Below are positions 1,714-21,879 of a stretch of DNA of 21,879 bases, one piece after another. This stretch comes from a virus. Location: positions 1 to 21,879 of the IMG/VR virus record IMGVR_UViG_3300028025_003363; one strand, written 5' to 3'. Numbering within the stretch: the stretch's first letter is position 1; the number at the start of each line of letters is the position of its first letter. The notes beneath the pieces are model-generated. The model ran no database searches. It had not been told where the DNA came from and saw nothing but the letters and a program-made list of their open reading frames with translations. The position numbers and the translations under genes were made by a program.

Positions 1714-3597
1714 TTACGCCATCTTAACCTGTGTAAATTCTCTCGGGTCGGTGTCATTTACATTATATTGTAAATTAATGGTTCTTGTCTTATCGTATTT
1801 ACTTCCCATTGATTCGGTGAAACTTGTTTTGAAACCATCTAATAATTTTTTAATATACTCCTCACCATTTTGAACCGCTTCATCTTTCTTTTCTATTATT
1901 TTATTTTTTAAATCTTCTCTCGCCTCGGATGATGACATGACATTTTTTATTTTAGCACCCAATTCTTGACCACTTTTTTTATCCTCAGTTACATTTACTT
2001 TTTTAGTGTCAACCAATTTGGTTAAGGATTCCTTAAATTCATCTTGGAATGTTTTTGCTAAATTAGAACTCATTCCTTTTACATAAGCAGCACCACGAAC
2101 TTTTACGTATGCCGCAATAACATCAACTTGGCGTGAAATTTGTTGAGTTTCTGTTAATTGACTCATAGCAATTTTACTGCTATCCATCTTTTCAAACGCT
2201 TCTTGATTCTTAATTAAAACTTCTTTTTGTGCCTCAGTTAACTCTTCCAATTTAATTGGTTCCATACCTAATTGGTCTTGTAAAGATTTTGGAACAACGA
2301 TTTTCATTTCACCGTTTTCCATTCTTGAGATATTAGTTAAGAACTCTCTATCTTTCTCAGGCATATTCAAACCTGACGCCATTAACGATGCAGCTGCGGA
2401 GGAACGTTCAGCCGCGGCAATTGCTATTTTATTTAACTCACCCATTGAAATACCCATTTGTTGAGCCATCTCTTTAGATTTTCTTAAATTAACACTTGTA
2501 ACCTCAAACCTACCTTGTTCCTGATTATATGTAGCTAAACCACCTGCGGCACCCACTAATGCGTCTTGTAGTCCCTCCACATTATTTGTGGCCATATACA
2601 TTAATTTAAGTGGGTCATTAAAATCACCAATAGCACCACCCAATACTTGCATGTTTGCGGTAAAGTCAATAGCACTTGTTGCGTCAAAAACTTTATCGGC
2701 AATTGTAAACACCGAATCCATATTCATTCTAAACTCAAGTGCTTTTCTTGACATATCTTCAAGACCTTTTATACCATTTTTAAACCCATACTCATTAAGT
2801 TTACTCATACTGGCCGTCATAGTTTCGGTAACTTTTCTAGCACTCATACCTAATGAAATACTTTTTGTGGCGGCTTGGTCTAAATTTTTGATTGTTTGGT
2901 CAACACCCACACCTATGGTCTCATAGTCACTCATGATTGAGGCCATTTCTTCCATAGTTTTACCTAAAACCATAGCAACAGGTGCTGCCGATTCCATAGT
3001 ACTTCGGTTTATGAACGCGAATTTACCTGAATTATCAACTAATCCCGTATATAATTCTCCAATGTTAGATAAACTAAAACCATATCTTCTCGCCTCGATT
3101 GAGGCTTCTTTCATATCATCTTGTAACGCTTCCGATAATTCACCACTAAGACCAGTTTTTGCGTTTATTTCGGATAGTAATGTTGACTCGGCCTTTAATT
3201 GTTCAAGAGCCTGTTCATATGCCAAACCTGTGGCGTTACCAACTAACGCCGCGGGATTTGCCCCACTCTTTTCAAGTAACTCCGCAAGTTTTTGGGCTGT
3301 GGAATCAGATTCTTCGACACCCATTTGACTTTGGTATACGTCATTAATTGCCTTACCAACAAGTTTAGTGGCGTCATTGGCAATTCCAAAAGTTTTTTTG
3401 GTAAATTTTGAAATCATACCGGACATGTCAAAACCTCCGGTCGTACCCTCAGCTTCTAATCCGGTAGTACCTGCCTTTGCGGCATTATACGCAATTTCCC
3501 ACGCTTTGGGGTCTGAGCTTCCATATAACGCTTCGTAGGCAATTTTAAAACTTTTTTTGTTACCGTTTTTAGCGTACTTTAGTAAATCCTTATTCAT
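1714..3597 (-). CDS. Tail tape-measure-like protein (gp29-like)
   Basis: This 627-residue protein is mostly helical and rich in Ala, Lys, Glu and Met, with long heptad-like stretches (for example around residues 95-170 and 440-600) and a Gly/Thr-rich break near residue 45-57. It resembles a tape measure, the rod that sets tube length and is packed inside the tail tube. The length is close to T4 gp29 (590 residues). The identification rests mainly on position: in most tailed phages the tape measure follows directly after the tail tube and the two overlapping tail-assembly chaperone ORFs, exactly as here. It starts 21 bases after the small chaperone ORF, with a TATTTATA element ending 4 bases before the ATG, so a transcript starting there would be nearly leaderless. 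There is no clear transmembrane segment. I did not recognise a specific sequence motif. Confidence 0.65.
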   Translation of the reverse strand: MNKDLLKYAKNGNKKSFKIAYEALYGSSDPKAWEIAYNAAKAGTTGLEAEGTTGGFDMSGMISKFTKKTFGIANDATKLVGKAINDVYQSQMGVEESDSTAQKLAELLEKSGANPAALVGNATGLAYEQALEQLKAESTLLSEINAKTGLSGELSEALQDDMKEASIEARRYGFSLSNIGELYTGLVDNSGKFAFINRSTMESAAPVAMVLGKTMEEMASIMSDYETIGVGVDQTIKNLDQAATKSISLGMSARKVTETMTASMSKLNEYGFKNGIKGLEDMSRKALEFRMNMDSVFTIADKVFDATSAIDFTANMQVLGGAIGDFNDPLKLMYMATNNVEGLQDALVGAAGGLATYNQEQGRFEVTSVNLRKSKEMAQQMGISMGELNKIAIAAAERSSAAASLMASGLNMPEKDREFLTNISRMENGEMKIVVPKSLQDQLGMEPIKLEELTEAQKEVLIKNQEAFEKMDSSKIAMSQLTETQQISRQVDVIAAYVKVRGAAYVKGMSSNLAKTFQDEFKESLTKLVDTKKVNVTEDKKSGQELGAKIKNVMSSSEAREDLKNKIIEKKDEAVQNGEEYIKKLLDGFKTSFTESMGSKYDKTRTINLQYNVNDTDPREFTQVKMA

Positions 3598-3609: not shown

Positions 3610-3618
3610 GAACGTTTA

Positions 3619-3780
3619 TTATTTTTCAGATTCTAATTCTATAAGATAACTTACATAATATCTTCTAATGTAAACGGGCATACCCATAATGTCGGTGTAT
3701 GTGAAACCTCTCTTTACTAAAAATAAAATTTCATCTAATTGATTTTTCCTATAATCCGTAGAAAGGACGAAAAAACTCAA
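3619..3780 (-). CDS. Second tail-assembly chaperone ORF (gp51-like), possibly made by frameshift
   Basis: A small frame overlaps the end of the gp26-like gene in the +1 frame and ends in TAA at 3621-3619. It reads ..RKNQLDEILFLVKRGFTY, then TDIMGMPVYIRRYYVSYLIE, then LESEK. The core pattern (hydrophobic helix, G-F-T-Y-x-D-I, MP, then R-R-Y-Y and an acidic tail) looks like the short gp51-type baseplate-hub or tail chaperone proteins. There is no ATG near its beginning. The frame opens after a TAG at about 3791, and the only reasonable independent start is TTG at 3780 (53 residues). Otherwise it is reached from the upstream gene by a +1 slip at TTTTTTC (3775-3769), giving a fusion of about 294 residues. 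Its place between the tail tube and tape measure is where frameshifted tail chaperones are found in many phages. That the frame is coding is fairly sure; how it is expressed is not. Confidence 0.65.
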   Translation of the reverse strand: MSFFVLSTDYRKNQLDEILFLVKRGFTYTDIMGMPVYIRRYYVSYLIELESEK

Positions 3781-4504
3781 CCCCGAACCCTAATTCAATT
3801 TGGGTTTTGTCTCCTGACGGGGTGATTACTTCTTGGGTTAAATCTAACCCTGGTTTATTTTCGTTAACGTATTTTCTAAAATCTTGAGAATCTTTAATTG
3901 GTAAAGTTTCCACAAAGTTACGTATCATCATCAAATCCTTATTACCTCCAACCGATTTAATCATAAATTCAAGTTGTTTGGTAATAATAGGTGCCACGCC
4001 AAGACCGTTCCAACTTCTTTTTATTTCATCAATTTCTTTTTCTTGTTTTTTTGTTAAGAAATTAAATGTGATATCAACTTTACTTTTTTCCATAAAAAAT
4101 GGATATTCGTTATTTGAATCGGGTATTAGATTAAATTCTTTAGTTTTAAGTGTACTTAAATCTACTTGAATTGTAAATTCCTCATCAGTTTTGGGGTCGG
4201 TTAATGTAACATTATAATCTGTACCAAATGCAGTATTTCTTAAGAATATTAAAATGGCCTGTCTATCTTCTTCAATAATATCATCAACAAGTAAGTCTTT
4301 ATCCAAAACTTTTCTTTTTAGAAGTTCATCAACAACTCCACCTGAATTTATTAAACTTGATGATGATAAAATATTTTCATCGGATGCGGTAAGATACGCA
4401 ACTCTTACACTTTTCTTTTTATTTGTGTAGTAAATTCCTCTACTCGGTAATTCAACCACATCATATGCGATAGTTGGGTCAATTCTTAATTCTTCCATAA
4501 ACAC
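3749..4504 (-). CDS. Baseplate hub / tail-assembly chaperone, gp26-like (T4_baseplate family)
   Basis: The protein has 251 residues; T4 gp26 has 208. It begins with the family-like pattern of ELPSRGIYY (residues 18-26), a short basic strand (KKKSVRVAYLTASDE) and a helical region ending DRQAILIFLRNTAFG, followed by a beta-rich middle (YNVTLTDPKTDEEFTIQVDL) and a C-terminal helical part. These features match the T4 gp26/PF12322-type proteins, which assist baseplate hub or tail-tube assembly. It lies 111 bases after the tail tube gene, with a terminator-like hairpin between. Its last codons overlap the small second chaperone ORF, and the run TTTTTTC near codon 245 could allow ribosomes to slip into it. 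A second Met at residue 3 is an alternative start. Assignment is from remembered family pattern plus gene order; no profile search was possible. Confidence 0.65.
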   Translation of the reverse strand: MFMEELRIDPTIAYDVVELPSRGIYYTNKKKSVRVAYLTASDENILSSSSLINSGGVVDELLKRKVLDKDLLVDDIIEEDRQAILIFLRNTAFGTDYNVTLTDPKTDEEFTIQVDLSTLKTKEFNLIPDSNNEYPFFMEKSKVDITFNFLTKKQEKEIDEIKRSWNGLGVAPIITKQLEFMIKSVGGNKDLMMIRNFVETLPIKDSQDFRKYVNENKPGLDLTQEVITPSGDKTQIELGFGVEFFRPFYGL

Positions 4505-4615: not shown

Positions 4616-5104
4616 TTAGTAAACTTGGATACATCTATCCATTCTCAATCCACAAGTGATTGAAGCGATAGCATCAGCACTATAGTCTAATGTACCAAAA
4701 TCAACTGATGTTAAGAAAGCACCTTGGATAATCCATTTTTCCACAACAACACCTGTTGGGTCTAACATTTCTAATTCAATATCTTTTTTATATCCCGCCG
4801 CGTAACCCATACGACCAGTTACTGATTCTGCGTGTAAACGGAACCATTCCATTAAAGCTTGTGATGCTGAAGGTCCAATTGGGTCCTTAAATGTTACAGT
4901 CATTTCATCCCAAGTAAATCTACCGGCAACATAAGTTGATGTGTTTAAAAAAGGAATCTCAGTAGAGTTAATTTTAGCTGAAGGTCTTTTAGTTGAGGTT
5001 ACATACCATTCATTAATATTCATTGATGAAGGGAATCTCAAAATAAATCTGTTTTGTCTTTTCGGTTCAAATGGAACCGGCATTTTCATTAGTAAATCTG
5101 CCAT
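4616..5104 (-). CDS. Tail tube protein (gp19-like)
   Basis: A 162-residue protein, nearly the same length as T4 gp19 (163). It has the tube-protein pattern: an N-terminal segment ending in RFILRFP (residues 16-26), NEWYVTSTKRPS (31-42), a beta-hairpin stretch with FTWDEMTVTFKDPIG (63-77), a helix ALMEWFRLHAESVTGRMGY, then KDIELEMLDPTGVVVEKWII and a final strand series ending SADAIASITCGLRMDRC. Tube proteins stack as hexameric rings inside the sheath and form the DNA channel. It follows the sheath gene, the T4 order 18-19, but is separated by a terminator and a 287-base region, so it is likely transcribed on its own at high level. The ATG at 5104 is preceded by an A-rich leader without a Shine-Dalgarno site; a TATTTATA element lies 35 bases upstream. 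Confidence 0.88.
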   Translation of the reverse strand: MADLLMKMPVPFEPKRQNRFILRFPSSMNINEWYVTSTKRPSAKINSTEIPFLNTSTYVAGRFTWDEMTVTFKDPIGPSASQALMEWFRLHAESVTGRMGYAAGYKKDIELEMLDPTGVVVEKWIIQGAFLTSVDFGTLDYSADAIASITCGLRMDRCIQVY

Positions 5105-5391: not shown

Positions 5392-8253
5392 TTAGATATT
5401 CTCGAATGATGCTCCTGTTGGAGTGATAATAAATTCCAAATCGATAAATTCAAGAGAACGAGTTGGTTTGATATAAATCTTACCTCTTAAAGTATTCGCA
5501 TCGATGTCCTCAGGGTCATTAGATACCGAAACTTTAAATTCATTTAAACCTCTTTCTTTCTTAATTGATTCCAAGATAGGGTTAACTAATCTCAAGAATT
5601 CTTGTCTTACTTGTTCATCATTTTGTTCAAATAACAATCTAACCGCAACTGCTGAGATTAATTTTCTTGCTCTTAATAATAATCTTCTTACGTTGATTCT
5701 ATCTAAAGCAGATTCTCTAACTTGAAGTGTTTTGTTACCCCAAATGATTGTACCTGTATCAGAGAACGTTGCGATTGGGTTAATTCTGTTCTTATATAAT
5801 TCATCTCTTTCATCAAGAGTTAATTTTTTGTAAGCTTTGATTGCGTTTACTAAACCTCTTTGGTAACCCGCAACTGCGAACCATGGGTATGATACATTAT
5901 CGGTTAAAGCAATATTCTTCAATACTTCACCTGTTGGTGGAATGTAAAGTTGAGTTGCGTTATCTGTATCTCTTACTTGAATCCAAGGCCAATAAGTTGC
6001 TGAGTAGTTAGTGTCTAATGAAACTGAATCCAATGAACCAACAACACCGTCAGCTGAAGTATCATTTGGTGCCCCAATAATGTAAAGTGAATCCGCTCTA
6101 TCATTTTCAACCATATCAATTGCTTGACTTGTTAATGAACTATGGTCAAAAAAGTTTATACCTGGTGTTGCGAATACATTAATATCAACCGCCTCTGGGT
6201 TGGCAAATGTTTCAATACCTTTTAGATATGCGTAATAATCGGAGTTTCCTACTGTTGTACTAAATAAACCACTAGCACTGTATGTTGATTTACCGAAAAT
6301 ATAAGCGTCACCATAAGTTCTTACTGTTCTATAAACATCCCATCCATCATAACCACCACAAACCGCAAATGTAAATTTACGATAATTGATATTATCTAAA
6401 AGTCCTTTATCGGTTCCTTCTAAATCATATTCAGTTGTTTGATATGCGTAACCTGATGGCATTGTGCCCGTAATGTCCGCCGCTTGTGAAGAAAGGTGGA
6501 AACCATATGAAACTGATGATGCTCCAACACCTTTATATTTAAACAAGTCACTATCAATACCAACTTGTGATGATAAACCTAATGAAACTTTCTTTACTTT
6601 ATCACCACTTGAAATATTAGCAGTACCATCGGAATCGTAACTTATAACATCACCCGCTTCGTAGTATTTTGTTTTAAATAAAACACTACCTAAAGTTGAA
6701 GTGCTGTCAAAATCGGCGTTTGAGATAAAACCTTTAAATCCCGCCGGAAATGCGTCTGTCGGGTGATTTTCAGCCATTTGTAACATGATATACTTTGAAC
6801 GTAATTCATACTCACCATCTGAAGTACCTATTTTTCTTGCCACATAACCTGGCATATCAGGATTCATTGAACATCTTGAATATTTTTCAAGAACCACTTG
6901 ATTCTCGTCCGTATCATTAAAATCACGAACAATTAAATCAAATTCATTTGTATCTAAGTTAATGTTGATTACCGAAATTTTAACTTGGTAGTTAGCATCT
7001 TCACCATCTGAAATTGTCGCCACTTCAAATAAATCAGAAACACTTCCACCACGTACCTCAGAAACTACCATCGGAGAAACCGGTGTTTTCCAATCTGTTA
7101 AGAAATTATTACCTTCACTGTTGGCTAAAACTGTAGTCGCATGGATACCTCTTATTAAACCTTGTTGGAATGCGGTCTTTAATAAGTTTGGGTATGATTC
7201 GTAAACATATAATGGGAAGTCTTTATTATCTTTATCTGTAACTTTAGTTCCTAATACTTTATTTATGTATTTGTTTGATGATGAATCCAATGAACATGTA
7301 AATGTTTTAGTGTCACCATCTGAATTTACTGCGGAAATTGTAAAATTACCTAAAGGATTAGTCGCCACACCCGCAACATCACTAATAGTAACATCTCCAC
7401 CTGATGTAACCTCAAGAGTTAAATTTTGACCATCATAAACACCACGAGGTCTTAAAGCGGCAACTACAATATTATTATAGTCTTCGTTTAATGTACCACC
7501 ATAAACAAATCTTGTAATGTCAAATGAACCTGTCGAACCACTGTTATATACAAAAAGATATGAATAAACATCAGGATTAGTTCCTCCGTTTTCCTCAACT
7601 AAGGTATTGAACCATTCTTTTTCATTGTTATTATCAGTATTCTTTTTACCTGTTAGTGGTGATAATTGTTCTTTTAATGGTGTGTTTGGAATACTAGCAC
7701 TTGGAACAAGACCCATAACAAACCACTTACCGTGGTCCGCATTCGTGTAACCACTAAATGTTTTTAAAATATAGTTAGTAATTGTTGTACCATCATAAGC
7801 GGTTTTACCTGATAATTCACCATAGTAATCACTATTATCAATATCATCTAAAGTAGATGGGTCCATAGTTGTTCCCGTTTGTGTTACATGACTTGTTGTA
7901 TCTACGGTAATACCACCCAATGTTTTGATACCGAATGTTGTTTCGGGTTTATATCCGGTTAAACCAAGAACTCTTGTTACGAATAATTGGTTTGACTCTT
8001 GTAAATATGATTTTGCTACGTAAGGTAACTCATATTTTGGATTTCCGGCACCATCTTTTTCAGGAGATGTACCACCAAAATATATTTTAAATTCATCGAA
8101 ATTAGAAATTAACACTGGTTCAAAGGCCGGACCTCTTAAGGTCTCACCCACCAATCCTAATGTTGTTACTCCGACACTTTGCGCTACGAATGTTAAGTCT
8201 TTCTCAGATGTGTATACTCCGGGAGAAACGAATACTCTGTTTGAATTTGCCAT
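5392..8253 (-). CDS. Contractile tail sheath protein (gp18-like), extra long
   Basis: The N-terminus (residues 1-60) has the sheath pattern FVSPGVYTSEKD..VGVTTLGLVGETLRGPAF. The C-terminal 117 residues hold the conserved sheath domain: NKTLQVRESALDRINVRRLL, a helix with FEQNDEQVRQEFLRLV, then GLNEFKVS, a D-x-x-T-x-x-G-K strand and IYIKPTRSLEFIDLEFII. Sheath proteins stack around the tube and contract to drive it into the host. At 953 residues it is much longer than T4 gp18 (659). The extra length lies in the middle (about residues 100-650), which is rich in Asp, Ser, Thr and Gly and beta-type sequence, so surface domains projecting from the tail are inferred. It is monocistronic: a divergent region lies upstream and a strong terminator follows. 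A TATTTATA element lies 37 bases before the ATG. Confidence 0.92.
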   Translation of the reverse strand: MANSNRVFVSPGVYTSEKDLTFVAQSVGVTTLGLVGETLRGPAFEPVLISNFDEFKIYFGGTSPEKDGAGNPKYELPYVAKSYLQESNQLFVTRVLGLTGYKPETTFGIKTLGGITVDTTSHVTQTGTTMDPSTLDDIDNSDYYGELSGKTAYDGTTITNYILKTFSGYTNADHGKWFVMGLVPSASIPNTPLKEQLSPLTGKKNTDNNNEKEWFNTLVEENGGTNPDVYSYLFVYNSGSTGSFDITRFVYGGTLNEDYNNIVVAALRPRGVYDGQNLTLEVTSGGDVTISDVAGVATNPLGNFTISAVNSDGDTKTFTCSLDSSSNKYINKVLGTKVTDKDNKDFPLYVYESYPNLLKTAFQQGLIRGIHATTVLANSEGNNFLTDWKTPVSPMVVSEVRGGSVSDLFEVATISDGEDANYQVKISVININLDTNEFDLIVRDFNDTDENQVVLEKYSRCSMNPDMPGYVARKIGTSDGEYELRSKYIMLQMAENHPTDAFPAGFKGFISNADFDSTSTLGSVLFKTKYYEAGDVISYDSDGTANISSGDKVKKVSLGLSSQVGIDSDLFKYKGVGASSVSYGFHLSSQAADITGTMPSGYAYQTTEYDLEGTDKGLLDNINYRKFTFAVCGGYDGWDVYRTVRTYGDAYIFGKSTYSASGLFSTTVGNSDYYAYLKGIETFANPEAVDINVFATPGINFFDHSSLTSQAIDMVENDRADSLYIIGAPNDTSADGVVGSLDSVSLDTNYSATYWPWIQVRDTDNATQLYIPPTGEVLKNIALTDNVSYPWFAVAGYQRGLVNAIKAYKKLTLDERDELYKNRINPIATFSDTGTIIWGNKTLQVRESALDRINVRRLLLRARKLISAVAVRLLFEQNDEQVRQEFLRLVNPILESIKKERGLNEFKVSVSNDPEDIDANTLRGKIYIKPTRSLEFIDLEFIITPTGASFENI

Positions 8254-10352: not shown

Positions 10353-12104
10353 ATGGAAACAACAATTCCCGAAATAGAGGCGAGAAATATATTATCCACA
10401 TATGAAGGGTCCAATAATCAACTATTGGAATGGAAGAAAAAATTTGAGGAATTGAAGAGTTTTAAACTCACAAGACCCCAAGCCGAATATGTTCAGAAAT
10501 ATCATACAGTAACCCCAAAGGTGGCAAGAAAATATATTAACATAGTTAGTACATTTGGTGAAAAACTTGCCGACGATAAGTTACTACCAACTATACCTGA
10601 TAAAATATGGTGTGAAAAATTACTTTGTGATTCAGACAAAGCATATCATATATGGGGTAAATTAACTGAAAATGGACAATTACACGCAATGTGGTTACCA
10701 AAAGCGGCGGTTAAACAAGAAGAGAAAAAACTTAATCGTGTAATTGATTATTCAAAATATGGTAGTCGCCCACCAATGGACCACCAAAAGATTGCCATTG
10801 AAAAATTATTAGCGAACGATAAGTTCATTCTTGCTGATGATATGGGTCTTGGTAAAACCACTTCCGCTGTGATTGGTGCTCTTGAGAGTGAAGCAAAAAA
10901 GATTTTAATAGTATGTCCCGCTTCATTGAAAATAAACTGGGAGAGAGAGATTAAGAACTACTCAGACCGACGTGTACTAATTGTCGAAGGACGTAAATGG
11001 GGCTCGACATTTGACTTTTATATTATTAACTATGATATCATCAAAAATTACCACTCGACAGATAAGTCAGAAGATAGTGACGATTATAAGTTATTGGTTA
11101 ATGCCGGTTTTGACTTGGCAATCGTAGATGAAGCTCACTATATTTCAAACGCAACCGCAAACAGAACGCGTCTATTAAATGACGTACTTGAACAAATTCC
11201 AAAGGTTTGGTTATTAACAGGTACACCGATGACATCAAGACCGATTAACTTCTACAACCTTTTAAAGATTGTTGAAAGTCCATTAACATTAAATTGGCAA
11301 CAATACGTTCGTAGATACTGTGCCGGTTACCAATTCAGAGTTGGACAAAGAAAGGTATGGAATACAAGTGGAGCGTCTAATTTAGATGAACTTCGTGAAC
11401 TTACAAAGAATGTTGTTCTTCGTAGAATGAAAACAGATATTCTTGATTTACCCGAAAAAATTGTTACTCCGGTATTTGTGGAATTGAATAGTAGAATGTA
11501 CGATGAAGAGTTGGAAGATTTTACCCGTATTAGTAATGACAAGAAAGAATCTGAAACAATTACCGTTACATTAAATCGTTTAATGAAAATTAGACAACTA
11601 ATATCTTACGAAAAGATACCTTATACGTGTGAGATTATTGACCGATGTTTAGAACAAGGTAAAAAAGTAATCGTTTTAACTAACTTCACAATGACATTAG
11701 ATATGTTACATGAGAAATACAAAAAGAACTCCGTAACTCTTGATGGTCGTATGTCCAAAGATAAAAGACAGGAAAATGTGGATAGATTTCAAACCGAAGA
11801 TAAAATTAAAGTGTTCATTGGTAATATTAAAGCTGCCGGTGTTGGTATTACCTTAACTGCGGCTGAAGTTGTTATTATGAATGACTTATCATTTGTACCG
11901 GCAGACCACTCACAAGGTGAAGATAGGGCTTACCGATATGGTCAGAAAAATAGTGTATTAGTTTACTACCCCGTATTTGAGAATACAATTGAAAAGATTA
12001 TCTATAATATCTTACAAAAGAAAAAAGGTGTTATTGACCAAGTGATGGGGGATGGTGAATATTCAGAGTCGTTCAGTAAAGACCTAATAAAGGAACTCCT
12101 TTAA
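10353..12104 (+). CDS. SNF2-family DNA helicase/translocase (SMARCAL1-type)
   Basis: The 583-residue protein has the complete SNF2 motif set: motif I DDMGLGKT (residues 162-169, Lys168), Ia-type ILIVCPASLKINW (184-196), motif II DEAH (259-262), motif III LTGTPMTSRP (288-297), V-type AAGVGITLTAAEVVIMNDL and motif VI QGEDRAYRYGQ (521-531). The TGTP-M-SRP-x-x-F/L-Y run and the Q-x-E-D-R-x-x-R-x-G-Q end resemble SMARCAL1-like enzymes that use ATP to track on DNA and re-anneal strands or reverse forks. A phage role in recombination-dependent replication or fork repair, like T4 UvsW in function but of a different subfamily, is inferred. The first 135 residues have no recognised domain. It is the only large plus-strand gene on the left side of the polymerase and its last 21 bases overlap the convergent small gene. 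Confidence 0.92.
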   Translation: METTIPEIEARNILSTYEGSNNQLLEWKKKFEELKSFKLTRPQAEYVQKYHTVTPKVARKYINIVSTFGEKLADDKLLPTIPDKIWCEKLLCDSDKAYHIWGKLTENGQLHAMWLPKAAVKQEEKKLNRVIDYSKYGSRPPMDHQKIAIEKLLANDKFILADDMGLGKTTSAVIGALESEAKKILIVCPASLKINWEREIKNYSDRRVLIVEGRKWGSTFDFYIINYDIIKNYHSTDKSEDSDDYKLLVNAGFDLAIVDEAHYISNATANRTRLLNDVLEQIPKVWLLTGTPMTSRPINFYNLLKIVESPLTLNWQQYVRRYCAGYQFRVGQRKVWNTSGASNLDELRELTKNVVLRRMKTDILDLPEKIVTPVFVELNSRMYDEELEDFTRISNDKKESETITVTLNRLMKIRQLISYEKIPYTCEIIDRCLEQGKKVIVLTNFTMTLDMLHEKYKKNSVTLDGRMSKDKRQENVDRFQTEDKIKVFIGNIKAAGVGITLTAAEVVIMNDLSFVPADHSQGEDRAYRYGQKNSVLVYYPVFENTIEKIIYNILQKKKGVIDQVMGDGEYSESFSKDLIKELL

Positions 12105-12287
12105 CTCATCAACTAATTCTTTTAATAATTGATTTAAATTTTCGTTTTTAGGGTCACCAACAAAAACAGAGATTTTTTTACTTTGTAAATCGACACTTGC
12201 TTCATTTTCACCCTCTCCTGTTCTATATGAGAATTCAAAATTATGTCTACCACCTATTTCAAAAAGTTCTAATAATATCTTGTTCAT
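12084..12287 (-). CDS. Small acidic protein of unknown function
   Basis: A 67-residue minus-strand ORF: MNKILLELFEIGGRHNFEFS, a Gly/Glu-rich turn, ASVDLQSKKISVFVGDPKNE and a C-terminal acidic helix ending LVDELKEFLY. The pattern of two or three beta strands and a final helix looks like a real small folded protein and fits its start (ATG 12287 after an AT-rich leader) better than the plus-strand frame here, which is rich in His, Cys and Tyr and looks like noise. It is convergent with the helicase, overlapping its last 21 bases, and divergent from the gp13-like gene 37 bases away. I do not recognise it. Coding is likely but not sure. Confidence 0.6.
   Translation of the reverse strand: MNKILLELFEIGGRHNFEFSYRTGEGENEASVDLQSKKISVFVGDPKNENLNQLLKELVDELKEFLY
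12088..12103. repeat. Short palindrome at convergent gene ends
   Basis: TAAAGGA, two bases, TCCTTTA lies across the overlapping stop regions of the helicase and the convergent small gene. It could form a 6-base hairpin on either transcript but lacks a following T-run, so a terminator role is weak. Confidence 0.35.
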
Positions 12288-12302
12288 ATCTTAAATATAA
12301 AG

Positions 12303-12310
12303 TATTTATT
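12303..12310 (+). promoter_or_regulatory. TATTTATT element before the gp13-like gene
   Basis: A near-match to the TATTTATA element (last base T) 14 bases before ATG 12325, in the same orientation as the gene. A TTG lies 20 bases upstream of it, which is the spacing of Bacteroidota -33/-7 promoters, but the -7 sequence lacks the usual TTTG. Confidence 0.35.
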
Positions 12311-12324
12311 AGAATAAATCAATT

Positions 12325-13446
12325 ATGGCTACAAATATCATATCACCCGAAGAAAAAGATAAGTTATATACCCAAGTGTTCCATTTATTAGGAATGCCTG
12401 TTCGTGGTATTGAACTTACCGAAGAACAAATGGATACTTTTTTAGAGTTATCTCTATCAGAATACGAACAATATGTATCTGACTGGTTAATCGAATCACA
12501 ATGGTCTTCGTTGGCCGGTTTAAATGTAGACACACAATCACTAACTCGTGCGTTCACAACAAGAAGTTTAGATTATGAAACCCAATTTACACAAGCGTAT
12601 TCTAAAATCGTTGGTTTACAAGCGGGTAGTGGTGATGCTGAATTGAAAAAAGACTTTATCACATTAACGGGTGGTACGCAAGTTTATCAAATACCCGCCG
12701 GCCGTGAGGTTAATGAATTATTATGGTTCTCAAGAGCAGAATTAACAGATTCAATTGTTGACCCTTTCTTAGGTGGTTTTGGTGGTATTGGTGGAGTTGG
12801 TTTTGGTGGTGTGGGTGGTTTTGCTCAAATTGGTTCCGCGGGTTCATACTTTATGATGCCGGCCTTTGACTTATTACTTAGAATGGGTGATAGAAGTATG
12901 AAGAACCGTTTAATTGGTGGTGATTTAACTTATAGAATTACTGCGGGTCCTGACGGAACTAAACTTATTCACTTATATAATGTACCGGGTGGTAAGTTTG
13001 ACTTTGGTGCTATTGCCAATAGAAATTATCAGGTATGGTATTGGTATTATGAAACCACTGATAGAGACAGTTGTCTTGAGAAAAATAAAGATATTATTCG
13101 ACTTCCATCAGATGTGGACACCGAATTATTAAAATGGATGGATTTAAATAAACCGGCTCAGAACTGGGTTAGAAAATATTTGATTGCTTACTCTAAAGAA
13201 GGTTTAGGTCGTATTTGGGGTAAGTTTAGTGGTGACCTTAAAGTACCTGATAGCGAATTAAAGTTAGACTACCAATCATTATTAACTGAAGGTAAGGATG
13301 AAAAATCTAAGTTGGTTGAAGAATTAATGGCCCGTTTAGAAAGACTTCGCCCCGACAAACTTCTCGAAAGAAAAGGTGCCGAGGCTGAAAATCTTAATAA
13401 GTCATTGAAGTTCAGAGCAATGCCATCACCAATTACGGTAATCTAA
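12325..13446 (+). CDS. Neck / head-completion protein (gp13-like)
   Basis: The 373-residue protein starts with a helical unit (LYTQVFHLLGMPVRGIELTE, then a helix ending EYEQYVSDWLIESQW) that matches the opening of gp13-like neck proteins of T4-type cyanophages: a short helix, L-G-x-P, a strand, and an acidic helix ending in a Y-x-x-Y-x-x-x-x-W type stretch. A beta core follows (about 110-260) and the C-terminus has the gp13-like helices NWVRKYLIAYSKEGLGRIWG, a short strand pair, and a helix KSKLVEELMARLERL. These proteins join the portal to gp14 and the tail. Between 150 and 173 is a Gly-rich loop (GGFGGIGGVGFGGVGGFAQI). It is on the opposite strand from the gp14- and gp15-like genes, and the last four bases overlap the polymerase stop. 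T4 gp13 is 309 residues. Confidence 0.65.
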   Translation: MATNIISPEEKDKLYTQVFHLLGMPVRGIELTEEQMDTFLELSLSEYEQYVSDWLIESQWSSLAGLNVDTQSLTRAFTTRSLDYETQFTQAYSKIVGLQAGSGDAELKKDFITLTGGTQVYQIPAGREVNELLWFSRAELTDSIVDPFLGGFGGIGGVGFGGVGGFAQIGSAGSYFMMPAFDLLLRMGDRSMKNRLIGGDLTYRITAGPDGTKLIHLYNVPGGKFDFGAIANRNYQVWYWYYETTDRDSCLEKNKDIIRLPSDVDTELLKWMDLNKPAQNWVRKYLIAYSKEGLGRIWGKFSGDLKVPDSELKLDYQSLLTEGKDEKSKLVEELMARLERLRPDKLLERKGAEAENLNKSLKFRAMPSPITVI

Positions 13447-20217: not shown

Positions 20218-21879
20218 TTACGAACTAAATGTTATTGTTATTGGGTCACCATAAACAAATGGGTTAGTTGAATTTTGTATTTGTGATATACCCGTATCTA
20301 ACGCAAATTGAACATATCCACCATAATTAGGTAAATTAGTTATGTAATTTAAATTCGCAGGAAGTGAGAATTTTGCGGTGTCACCATTTTGTGTTAATGA
20401 CAGTGTTCCACCATTAGTTTGAATATTTTGAAATAATGATAAGTAGTCGGTACCAGCACTATTTTTAGTGTTGATACGGATTACACTTGTATAATCAGTA
20501 AAATTAGGATTATACGTTATATATAAATTTGATGTCAATCCTGTTGTAAAAAATATATCACCATTTCCATACGCCTCTCTTCCGACAGATGTATATAATC
20601 CCTCACTAGTGAAGAAAAACCAACTTCCAATGGTTACCGATGGAGTTGGGCTTGGTGTCGGTGTTAATGTACTTGTTAAAGTTGGTGTTGGTGTTTGAGT
20701 TTGGGTACTTGTAGGTGTTGAAGTTGGTATTGGAGCATTGGCACCACAACTAATCAATGTATTAGTTGCTGTACTGCTAGCAAATCCAGGTCCTCCCGGA
20801 AAACCATTTACGAAATAGGTAACAGACACAGGTTGACCTGATTGAACACAAATATCATTAGTATATGTTCCCGCCACTGTATAGTATTTTATGGTTGTTA
20901 AACCATTATCGTCTTTATATGTAACACGTACTCTATTATTATTTTCACCACTATTCACCGCACTATCTAAATCCGATTGTGATATTACTATTGTATAATA
21001 TGTGCTAATTAATAATGTTGAGGTTGGTGTTGGTGTGAGTGTGCTTGTTGTTGTAGGTGTCGGTGTTACACAACTTATTGTTACAGATTTTGCGATAATG
21101 TTTGATGGATTACTAACTTCTCTTACCGCCACCCAATACGTTCCACTTGCTGCTATAACTACAATACCACTACTTGGAGCAGAAATATTTTGCCATGTTG
21201 ATGCGTTAAGGGCACTATTTTCTGTTAGGTGAGTTCCCGCACTGTACTCATAAAAATTAGATAATGCTCCAACAAAATTACTTACTACGATTGTTCCATT
21301 ATTATTACATGTACTTGAAATTGTAAAACCTATTGGTGGTAAACTTGTTGTTGGTGTTGGTGTGGATGTTGGTGTTTTAGTCATCGTTGGTGTTGGTGTT
21401 GGCGTACCTGTTTCAGTCTGAGTTGGTGTTGGTGTTGGTGTTGGACACGGGTTAACTGCAGTAATTTGATTTGAATCAATTCTTACAACAGTATAAACAC
21501 CCAACATTTGAATGATGTAATATCCATCAGTTAATGAAGCGGCTACACAACTATTTTGTCCTAAATAAGAATAATCACCAACTTGTGGGGACGCATTATC
21601 GTAATATAATGTGTTATACCCACCAGCATGTAATGTTCCATTGTTCATACCTATGGCTGAATTACATGCCGTATTTAAATTATCTAAAAATTGACCTGAA
21701 CCCATATCATCTCTATCTATTAAATCTAAAGTATAAGGATGGTAACACGTTCTAGATGTTGTTGGTGTTAAAGTTGGCGTTGGTGTTAAAGTTGGTGTTT
21801 CAGTCTGAGTTGGGGTGGGTGTGGGTGTTGATGTTAGTGTTTGTGTTAATGTTGGAGTATTAGTTGGTGTTGGTGTACC
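20218..21879 (-). CDS. Modular adhesin-type protein with Pro-Thr linkers, N-terminus cut by window edge
   Basis: The frame is open to the right edge, so the ATG at 21705 is internal and 553 residues are visible. Four globular modules alternate with Pro-Thr linkers rich in TPTP and TPTxT: linkers at about 21754-21879, 21343-21444, 21010-21069 and 20638-20733. The modules are beta-rich; at least the first three both begin and end near a Cys (for example STCNNN...VTISC and DICVQ...LISC), suggesting disulfide-stabilised or mutually supporting domains on the virion surface. The last module of about 139 residues has WFFFTSEGLYTS and ends PITITFSS. Pro-Thr linkers of this kind are known in extracellular adhesins and cellulase-type enzymes and appear in phage surface proteins. 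It heads the fibre operon as seen. Host adhesion is inferred from this architecture; no domain is recognised by name. Confidence 0.75.
   Translation of the reverse strand, partial: GTPTPTNTPTLTQTLTSTPTPTPTQTETPTLTPTPTLTPTTSRTCYHPYTLDLIDRDDMGSGQFLDNLNTACNSAIGMNNGTLHAGGYNTLYYDNASPQVGDYSYLGQNSCVAASLTDGYYIIQMLGVYTVVRIDSNQITAVNPCPTPTPTPTQTETGTPTPTPTMTKTPTSTPTPTTSLPPIGFTISSTCNNNGTIVVSNFVGALSNFYEYSAGTHLTENSALNASTWQNISAPSSGIVVIAASGTYWVAVREVSNPSNIIAKSVTISCVTPTPTTTSTLTPTPTSTLLISTYYTIVISQSDLDSAVNSGENNNRVRVTYKDDNGLTTIKYYTVAGTYTNDICVQSGQPVSVTYFVNGFPGGPGFASSTATNTLISCGANAPIPTSTPTSTQTQTPTPTLTSTLTPTPSPTPSVTIGSWFFFTSEGLYTSVGREAYGNGDIFFTTGLTSNLYITYNPNFTDYTSVIRINTKNSAGTDYLSLFQNIQTNGGTLSLTQNGDTAKFSLPANLNYITNLPNYGGYVQFALDTGISQIQNSTNPFVYGDPITITFSS
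20638..21879 (-). repeat. Four blocks of Pro-Thr coding repeats (GTTGGTGTT-type DNA)
   Basis: The plus strand shows tandem GTTGGTGTT-like units in four blocks: 20638-20733, 21010-21069, 21343-21444 and 21754-21879. They code for the linkers of the adhesin. Such near-identical blocks can recombine with each other, giving gain or loss of the modules between them. Confidence 0.75.

Follow-up and report, generated by a model that had tools for sequence, protein, structure and literature searches.

Organization of the tail locus

The window analyzed in this work is a 21.9-kb virus fragment in which the tail genes lie on the minus strand in the order sheath, tube, G, T and a long ORF, matching the order of a lambda-type tail module. 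G (3749-4498, minus strand) is a putative gp26-like tail assembly chaperone gene; its short form, 249 aa plus stop, starts at ATG 4498 and ends at the TAG (3751-3749) of the unshifted frame. T (3619-3774, minus strand) is a 49-residue extension domain in the +1 frame that begins at the slip site and ends with TAA 3621-3619. The tail tube gene is located 5' of G (4616-5104, minus strand; phrog_4542 tail tube protein, E 1.4e-25), and directly 3' of T is the probable tape measure gene (1714-3597, minus strand), named from its position and from its annotation as such in Flavobacterium phage immuto and Bacillus phage SP-15. This ORF had no Pfam or phrog family match of its own, and the placement of G and T between tail tube and tape measure relies on those annotated relatives for the second of the two genes.

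Elsewhere in the window, the 953-residue tail sheath (5392-8253) has its sheath domains confined to the C-terminal third, behind a long N-terminal part. An ORF running off the end (20218-21879) carries long Thr-Pro repeats (TPTPTPT) and adjoins probable structural genes, and two plus-strand ORFs (10353-13446), one helicase-like and one of 373 residues, break into the otherwise minus-strand genes. A host search of GTDB genomes found no relative.

G matched Pfam PF12322 (T4_baseplate, gp26) above the family cut-off (E 7e-6) and phrog_150, a baseplate hub family, at E 1.4e-9. The structures of G and T were modelled separately. For the AF2 model of G (pLDDT 86), the best named match in BFVD was the SP-15 baseplate hub subunit (E 7.5e-15); a PDB fold search with this model gave no significant match, the HK97 chaperone 2ob9 being listed at E 2.8 and probability 0.15. 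PDB sequence searches with G and with T4 gp51 returned no matches. T was modelled as a helical hairpin (pLDDT 92) whose best fold match was a gp51-type protein, with a TM score of 0.81 of the query and an E value of 0.34 that make the match supportive only.

The first-pass annotation had placed the opening of the second frame inside the end of the gp26-like gene, with no ATG near its start, and both features are seen in the window: compared with G, T is read in +1 (or, equally, in -2), and its frame opens after TAG 3792-3790. A fusion of about 294 residues had been proposed; the fused reading frame stands, and its length becomes 292 residues from the ATG when TTT_C is read as one Phe, the larger figure counting from an upstream GTG.

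Conservation and selection of the T frame

A scan of viral contigs yielded 80 loci with 68-84% identity to the window, 62 of them distinct and 35 nonredundant, and the +1 ORF is kept in every locus with enough sequence. Over the 108 nt past G, stops occur in the +1 frame in none of the 35 nonredundant relatives, compared to 34 and 35 of the 35 in the other two frames. The open T frame is thus far beyond chance. Past the G stop, the pN/pS of T is 0.27 in the +1 frame, the corresponding values for the remaining two frames being 1.25 and 1.11, and the +1 frame upstream of the slip site is neutral (0.98). Purifying selection on T is confined to its +1 frame and begins at the slip site. T is a second ORF that stays open past the end of the first, has no conserved start and is under selection.

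The proposed slip site

The ending of G reads ...GAG TTT TTT CGT..., and the slip site TTT_TTT_C lies at 3769-3775 on the minus strand, with TTT 3772-3770 as the P-site codon and CGT 3769-3767 as the A-site codon. The first-pass annotation had pointed to TTTTTTC at this position and to a slip of the 0-frame TTT to TTC with CGT next. The heptamer was found where described, and comparison of the overlap among relatives of the window clade, which the annotation had recommended, showed that the frame relation and the TTT_C part are invariant, although the full TTTTTTC is not always kept. In all 35 nonredundant genes of the window clade, TTT encodes the second Phe and CGN follows it. Elsewhere in G of the same 35-gene set, CGN accounts for 18 of 287 Arg codons (6%) and AGA is dominant. 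The third base of CGN is variable, so that A, V or D follows the slip in the +1 frame; the fixed element is the C that allows UUU to re-pair as UUC. The window clade thus has the arrangement of UUU_CGN +1 frameshifting, with UUU in the P site, CGN next and an ORF in the +1 frame.

A rare or 'hungry' A-site codon was considered and not established. CGT is common in the window overall (53 of 230 Arg codons, CGN making up 31%), and avoidance of TTT_CGN was not shown either, with one in-frame occurrence in the window versus about 2.4 expected. The contig of one large relative (a 269-kb record) carries 24 tRNA genes, which could affect decoding of the slip site.

Upstream RNA stem-loop

A conserved RNA stem-loop, missed by the first-pass annotation, lies directly upstream of the slip site (3780-3823, minus strand). 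Its outer stem pairs 3823-3818 with 3785-3780, its inner stem pairs 3806-3800 with 3792-3786, and 7 nt separate its end from the P-site TTT. The structure was evident from fixed synonymous choices in G at ACCCC and GGGGT, which form the ends of a 44-nt stretch and pair with each other. (Codons 1-8 of G, window 4475-4498, also show excess synonymous conservation, possibly an initiation signal.) Across the alignment the two-stem structure has 94.1% of its cells paired, compared to 91.8±0.4% in shuffled alignments, and a covariation score of 0.165 against 0.122±0.007; pairing falls to 61% or less once the structure is slid by one base or more. Permuting codons within columns gave 92.0±0.4% pairing and never reached the observed value (0/200), and the mean MFE is -14.3 kcal/mol versus -9.9±0.5 for random synonymous sequences. 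One pair that links two third codon positions is AU in 17 genes and GC in 15, with about nine independent double changes on the tree. Three relatives (L019, L053 and L080) have the inner stem shifted by one base and retain pairing in another register.

Excess pairing was not seen 60-120 nt upstream or mid-gene. RNAalifold alone recovered only the outer stem, the hairpin of the window taken singly was not significant (z -1.46), and an Rfam search at the stem found no family. A second clade of relatives, described below, shows a weaker excess of pairing beside its slip site. We propose, as the likeliest role of the stem-loop, that it re-forms once the ribosome has passed and thereby favors the forward slip.

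A rather unlikely alternative is that the +1 shift is stimulated by the upstream GGGG, as an internal Shine-Dalgarno-like element of the prfB kind, with the stem pairing incidental. The GGG at codon 239 is indeed fixed in 35 of 35 genes, compared to 37 of 394 elsewhere in G; however, the matching CCCC strand is fixed as well and the pairs covary, the distance to the slip codon is 7-8 nt rather than the 3 nt of +1 stimulation (PMC5009743), and the other genes of the window are preceded by no clear Shine-Dalgarno pattern.

Alternative routes to T

We considered that T might be a separate small protein, made from an internal start that is translationally coupled to the end of G. The first-pass annotation had offered the TTG of the T frame at 3778-3780 (minus strand) as a simple alternative to frameshifting. 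The window keeps this codon, which could start T, some ATG, GTG or TTG precedes the slip site in the T frame in 38 of the 62 distinct relatives, and in cyanophage records T is entered as a gp51 of its own. Against this, 23 of the 62 have a +1-frame TAG directly before the slip site (GGGG TAG ART TTT TTC), 24 lack any ATG, GTG or TTG in the T frame as far as the end of G, selection on the +1 frame is absent ahead of the slip site, and the homologous domain in T4 sits within a G-T fusion. The TTG fails as a general start: it lacks conservation, and a stop takes its place in many relatives, which makes it a local accident rather than the mechanism. A separate T product is therefore very improbable. 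Frame conservation, selection and the absent starts instead lend strong support to the programmed frameshift that the first-pass annotation had proposed to join G and T.

That annotation had left the direction as +1 or -2. A -2 slip as in Mu, giving a product with one extra Phe, is permitted by the TTTTTT of most members. A Mu-type shift would require that the P-site tRNA be able to re-pair two bases upstream in all members, which the TTCTTTC and AACTTTCTA members do not allow: four loci (L020, L040, L041 and L094) read TTC_TTT_CGN and one (L084) reads AAC_TTT_CTA, which bar re-pairing two bases back, and both frames are kept in all five. The +1 half of the proposal is favored, and a -2 slip has very little probability left. 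RNA polymerase slippage on the T-run, giving mRNAs of both frames, is very unlikely as well. Most members do have a run of suitable length (6 to 8 T), but it is cut to 3 T in the TTCTTTC and AACTTTCTA members, and such slippage would not need an upstream stem or a fixed codon phase of TTT_C.

Relation to T4 gp26 and gp51

T4 gp26 and gp51, two paralogous genes on opposite strands, both match PF12322. Cyanophage T matched the stretch of gp51 that gp26 lacks (E 1.5e-10) and had no match to gp26. The T domain alignment of the window clade matched that of the immuto clade at 3.6e-15, and the cyanophage alignment matched the immuto clade at 1.4e-6. Coverage of phrog_150 was 5-232 for cyanophage G, 231-278 for cyanophage T, 14-235 for T4 gp26 and 13-280 for T4 gp51. 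These alignments link G to gp26 through PF12322, and T to the C-terminus of gp51 through profiles and weakly through fold, and they argue that T is homologous to that C-terminus. Because of the profile coverage of gp26, gp51 and T, T4 appears to make G (gp26) and G+T (gp51) from two genes, while the window would use one gene and a +1 shift. The TAC genes of T4-like phages have reportedly been identified by Vladimirov, Gautam and Davidson in 2022. A 2016 review gives T4 as the exception for frameshifted tail chaperones (PMC5009743), and PMC12846349 cites the 2022 study on T4-like TAC genes.

Shift direction in the wider family

We further searched phage records with tblastn and recovered immuto, Microcystis phage Mel-JY01, Rhodothermus phage RM378, SP-15 and Streptococcus phage GXN1. 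In all of these remote phages the T frame is +1 and branches off at the corresponding Phe-Phe pair (Phe-Leu in immuto), with slip sites TTT_CTT_TGG in immuto, TTT_TTT_TGG in Mel-JY01 and RM378, TTT_TTT_CAC in SP-15 and TTC_TTT_CGT in GXN1. The predicted junction peptide of immuto would be ...IGVSFFGLTPEYR or ...IGVSFLGLTPEYR, depending on which codon slips. In the immuto record, an annotated hypothetical protein (3614-3724) is a 37-codon piece of T and no slippage feature is annotated; the T domain has been missed or truncated in reference genomes such as this one.

A second viral-contig scan, combined with references, gave a second clade of 78 distinct loci that includes immuto and Mel-JY01. 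All but one are +1, with TTT_TGG_CC in 66, TTT_TAC in 4, CTT_TGG in 4 and TTT_TTC in 2; this sister clade has UUU_UGG in place of UUU_CGN. In the T-domain alignment of this second clade, 8 of 42 members match the functionally uncharacterized family PF20546 (DUF6760; best E 2.5e-5), which might represent the T domain in other contractile tails.

The opposite direction was also found. Two isolated relatives, L139 (2432-3253) and L095 (about 2501-3300), carry a -1-frame T preceded by A_AAT_TTC and T_TTT_TTC, respectively, which suggests that shift direction switched within the family. The T of cyanophages and other T4-like phages, which often bears the name gp51, is likewise in the -1 frame: five of six references have T_TTT_TTC and the remaining one, Sinorhizobium phage phiN3, has T_TTT_TTT. 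T_TTT_TTC also stands at 76 of 76 distinct loci of cyanophage-type contigs, none of which has an upstream start in that frame. The first-pass view that a +1 or -2 event in a T4-type gp26/gp51 pair would be unusual needs a correction: given these -1 versions, frameshifted pairs are not unusual outside T4's own family. The cyanophage gp26 and small gp51 ORF are homologous to G and T and slip at the same Phe-Phe codons; cyanophages shift -1 at U_UUU_UUC, whereas the window, with T in +1, departs from the canonical -1 heptamer and its clade would shift +1.

Proposed mechanism and comparison with known systems

Taken together, the locus is very probably a G/GT-type (TAC-N/TAC-NC) gene for a tail assembly chaperone, with programmed +1 ribosomal frameshifting as its mode of expression, a reading drawn from comparative sequence data. 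We infer slippage and its efficiency as follows. Most ribosomes would read G and terminate at 3749. In some, the Phe-tRNA on the P-site UUU, with CGN waiting in the A site, would slip forward by one base to UUC, with which the same tRNA should pair at least as well as with UUU. The stem-loop 7 nt upstream would re-form behind the ribosome and draw the mRNA backward through it, favoring the forward slip. The shifted ribosomes would go on into T and make a GT protein of 292 residues. If lambda is taken as the model, G and GT would form a coat on the tape measure protein, and T would bring in tail tube subunits.

More tentatively, and with somewhat less than even confidence, we suggest that a hairpin re-forming behind the ribosome and pushing a UUU-bound Phe tRNA forward defines a distinct +1 class in bacterial viruses, and that homologs have exchanged shift direction or duplicated the gene while still arriving at equivalent proteins. 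What looks new is the forward (+1) direction, together with the motif and the 5' stem. One homologous gene family would produce a single pair of proteins by +1, -1 and duplicated-gene routes, all at one Phe-Phe site, which makes the evolution of shift direction directly testable. The covarying 5' stem is also a candidate bacterial +1 stimulator distinct from a Shine-Dalgarno sequence.

Frameshifted tail chaperones are a textbook form of recoding, and the described cases are nearly all -1. Xu et al. (2004) reportedly described tail assembly chaperones made by a -1 shift, lambda G/GT among them. The window resembles lambda G/GT in its place between tube and tape measure and in a short and a C-terminally extended form from one gene; lambda shifts -1 at a heptamer, whereas the window has a probable +1 shift, a UUU_C site, a 5' stem and a G of the gp26 family. 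Annotation also places forward shifts in certain other phage chaperone genes, PRFect giving a count of 350 forward motifs for the annotated cases (PMC10885494).

The P-site codon, A-site codon and direction of the window are identical to those of influenza A PA-X and plant amalgaviruses, for which UUU_CGN is the +1 motif (PMC5052127). However, both belong to eukaryotic RNA viruses, and PA-X has no evident stimulator (PMC5009743), while the window clade has a conserved 5' stem. In T4 gene 60, a 5' stem-loop re-forming behind the ribosome has been proposed to drive forward movement (PMC5009743), and the likeness to the window lies in an RNA hairpin behind the ribosome with a proposed forward drive; the gene 60 bypass spans 50 nt, compared to the single base of the window, where the role of the hairpin is presumed. 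The device at this locus appears to be the forward-slip version of one usually seen with a backward slip, in a large uncultured family of T4-type phages.
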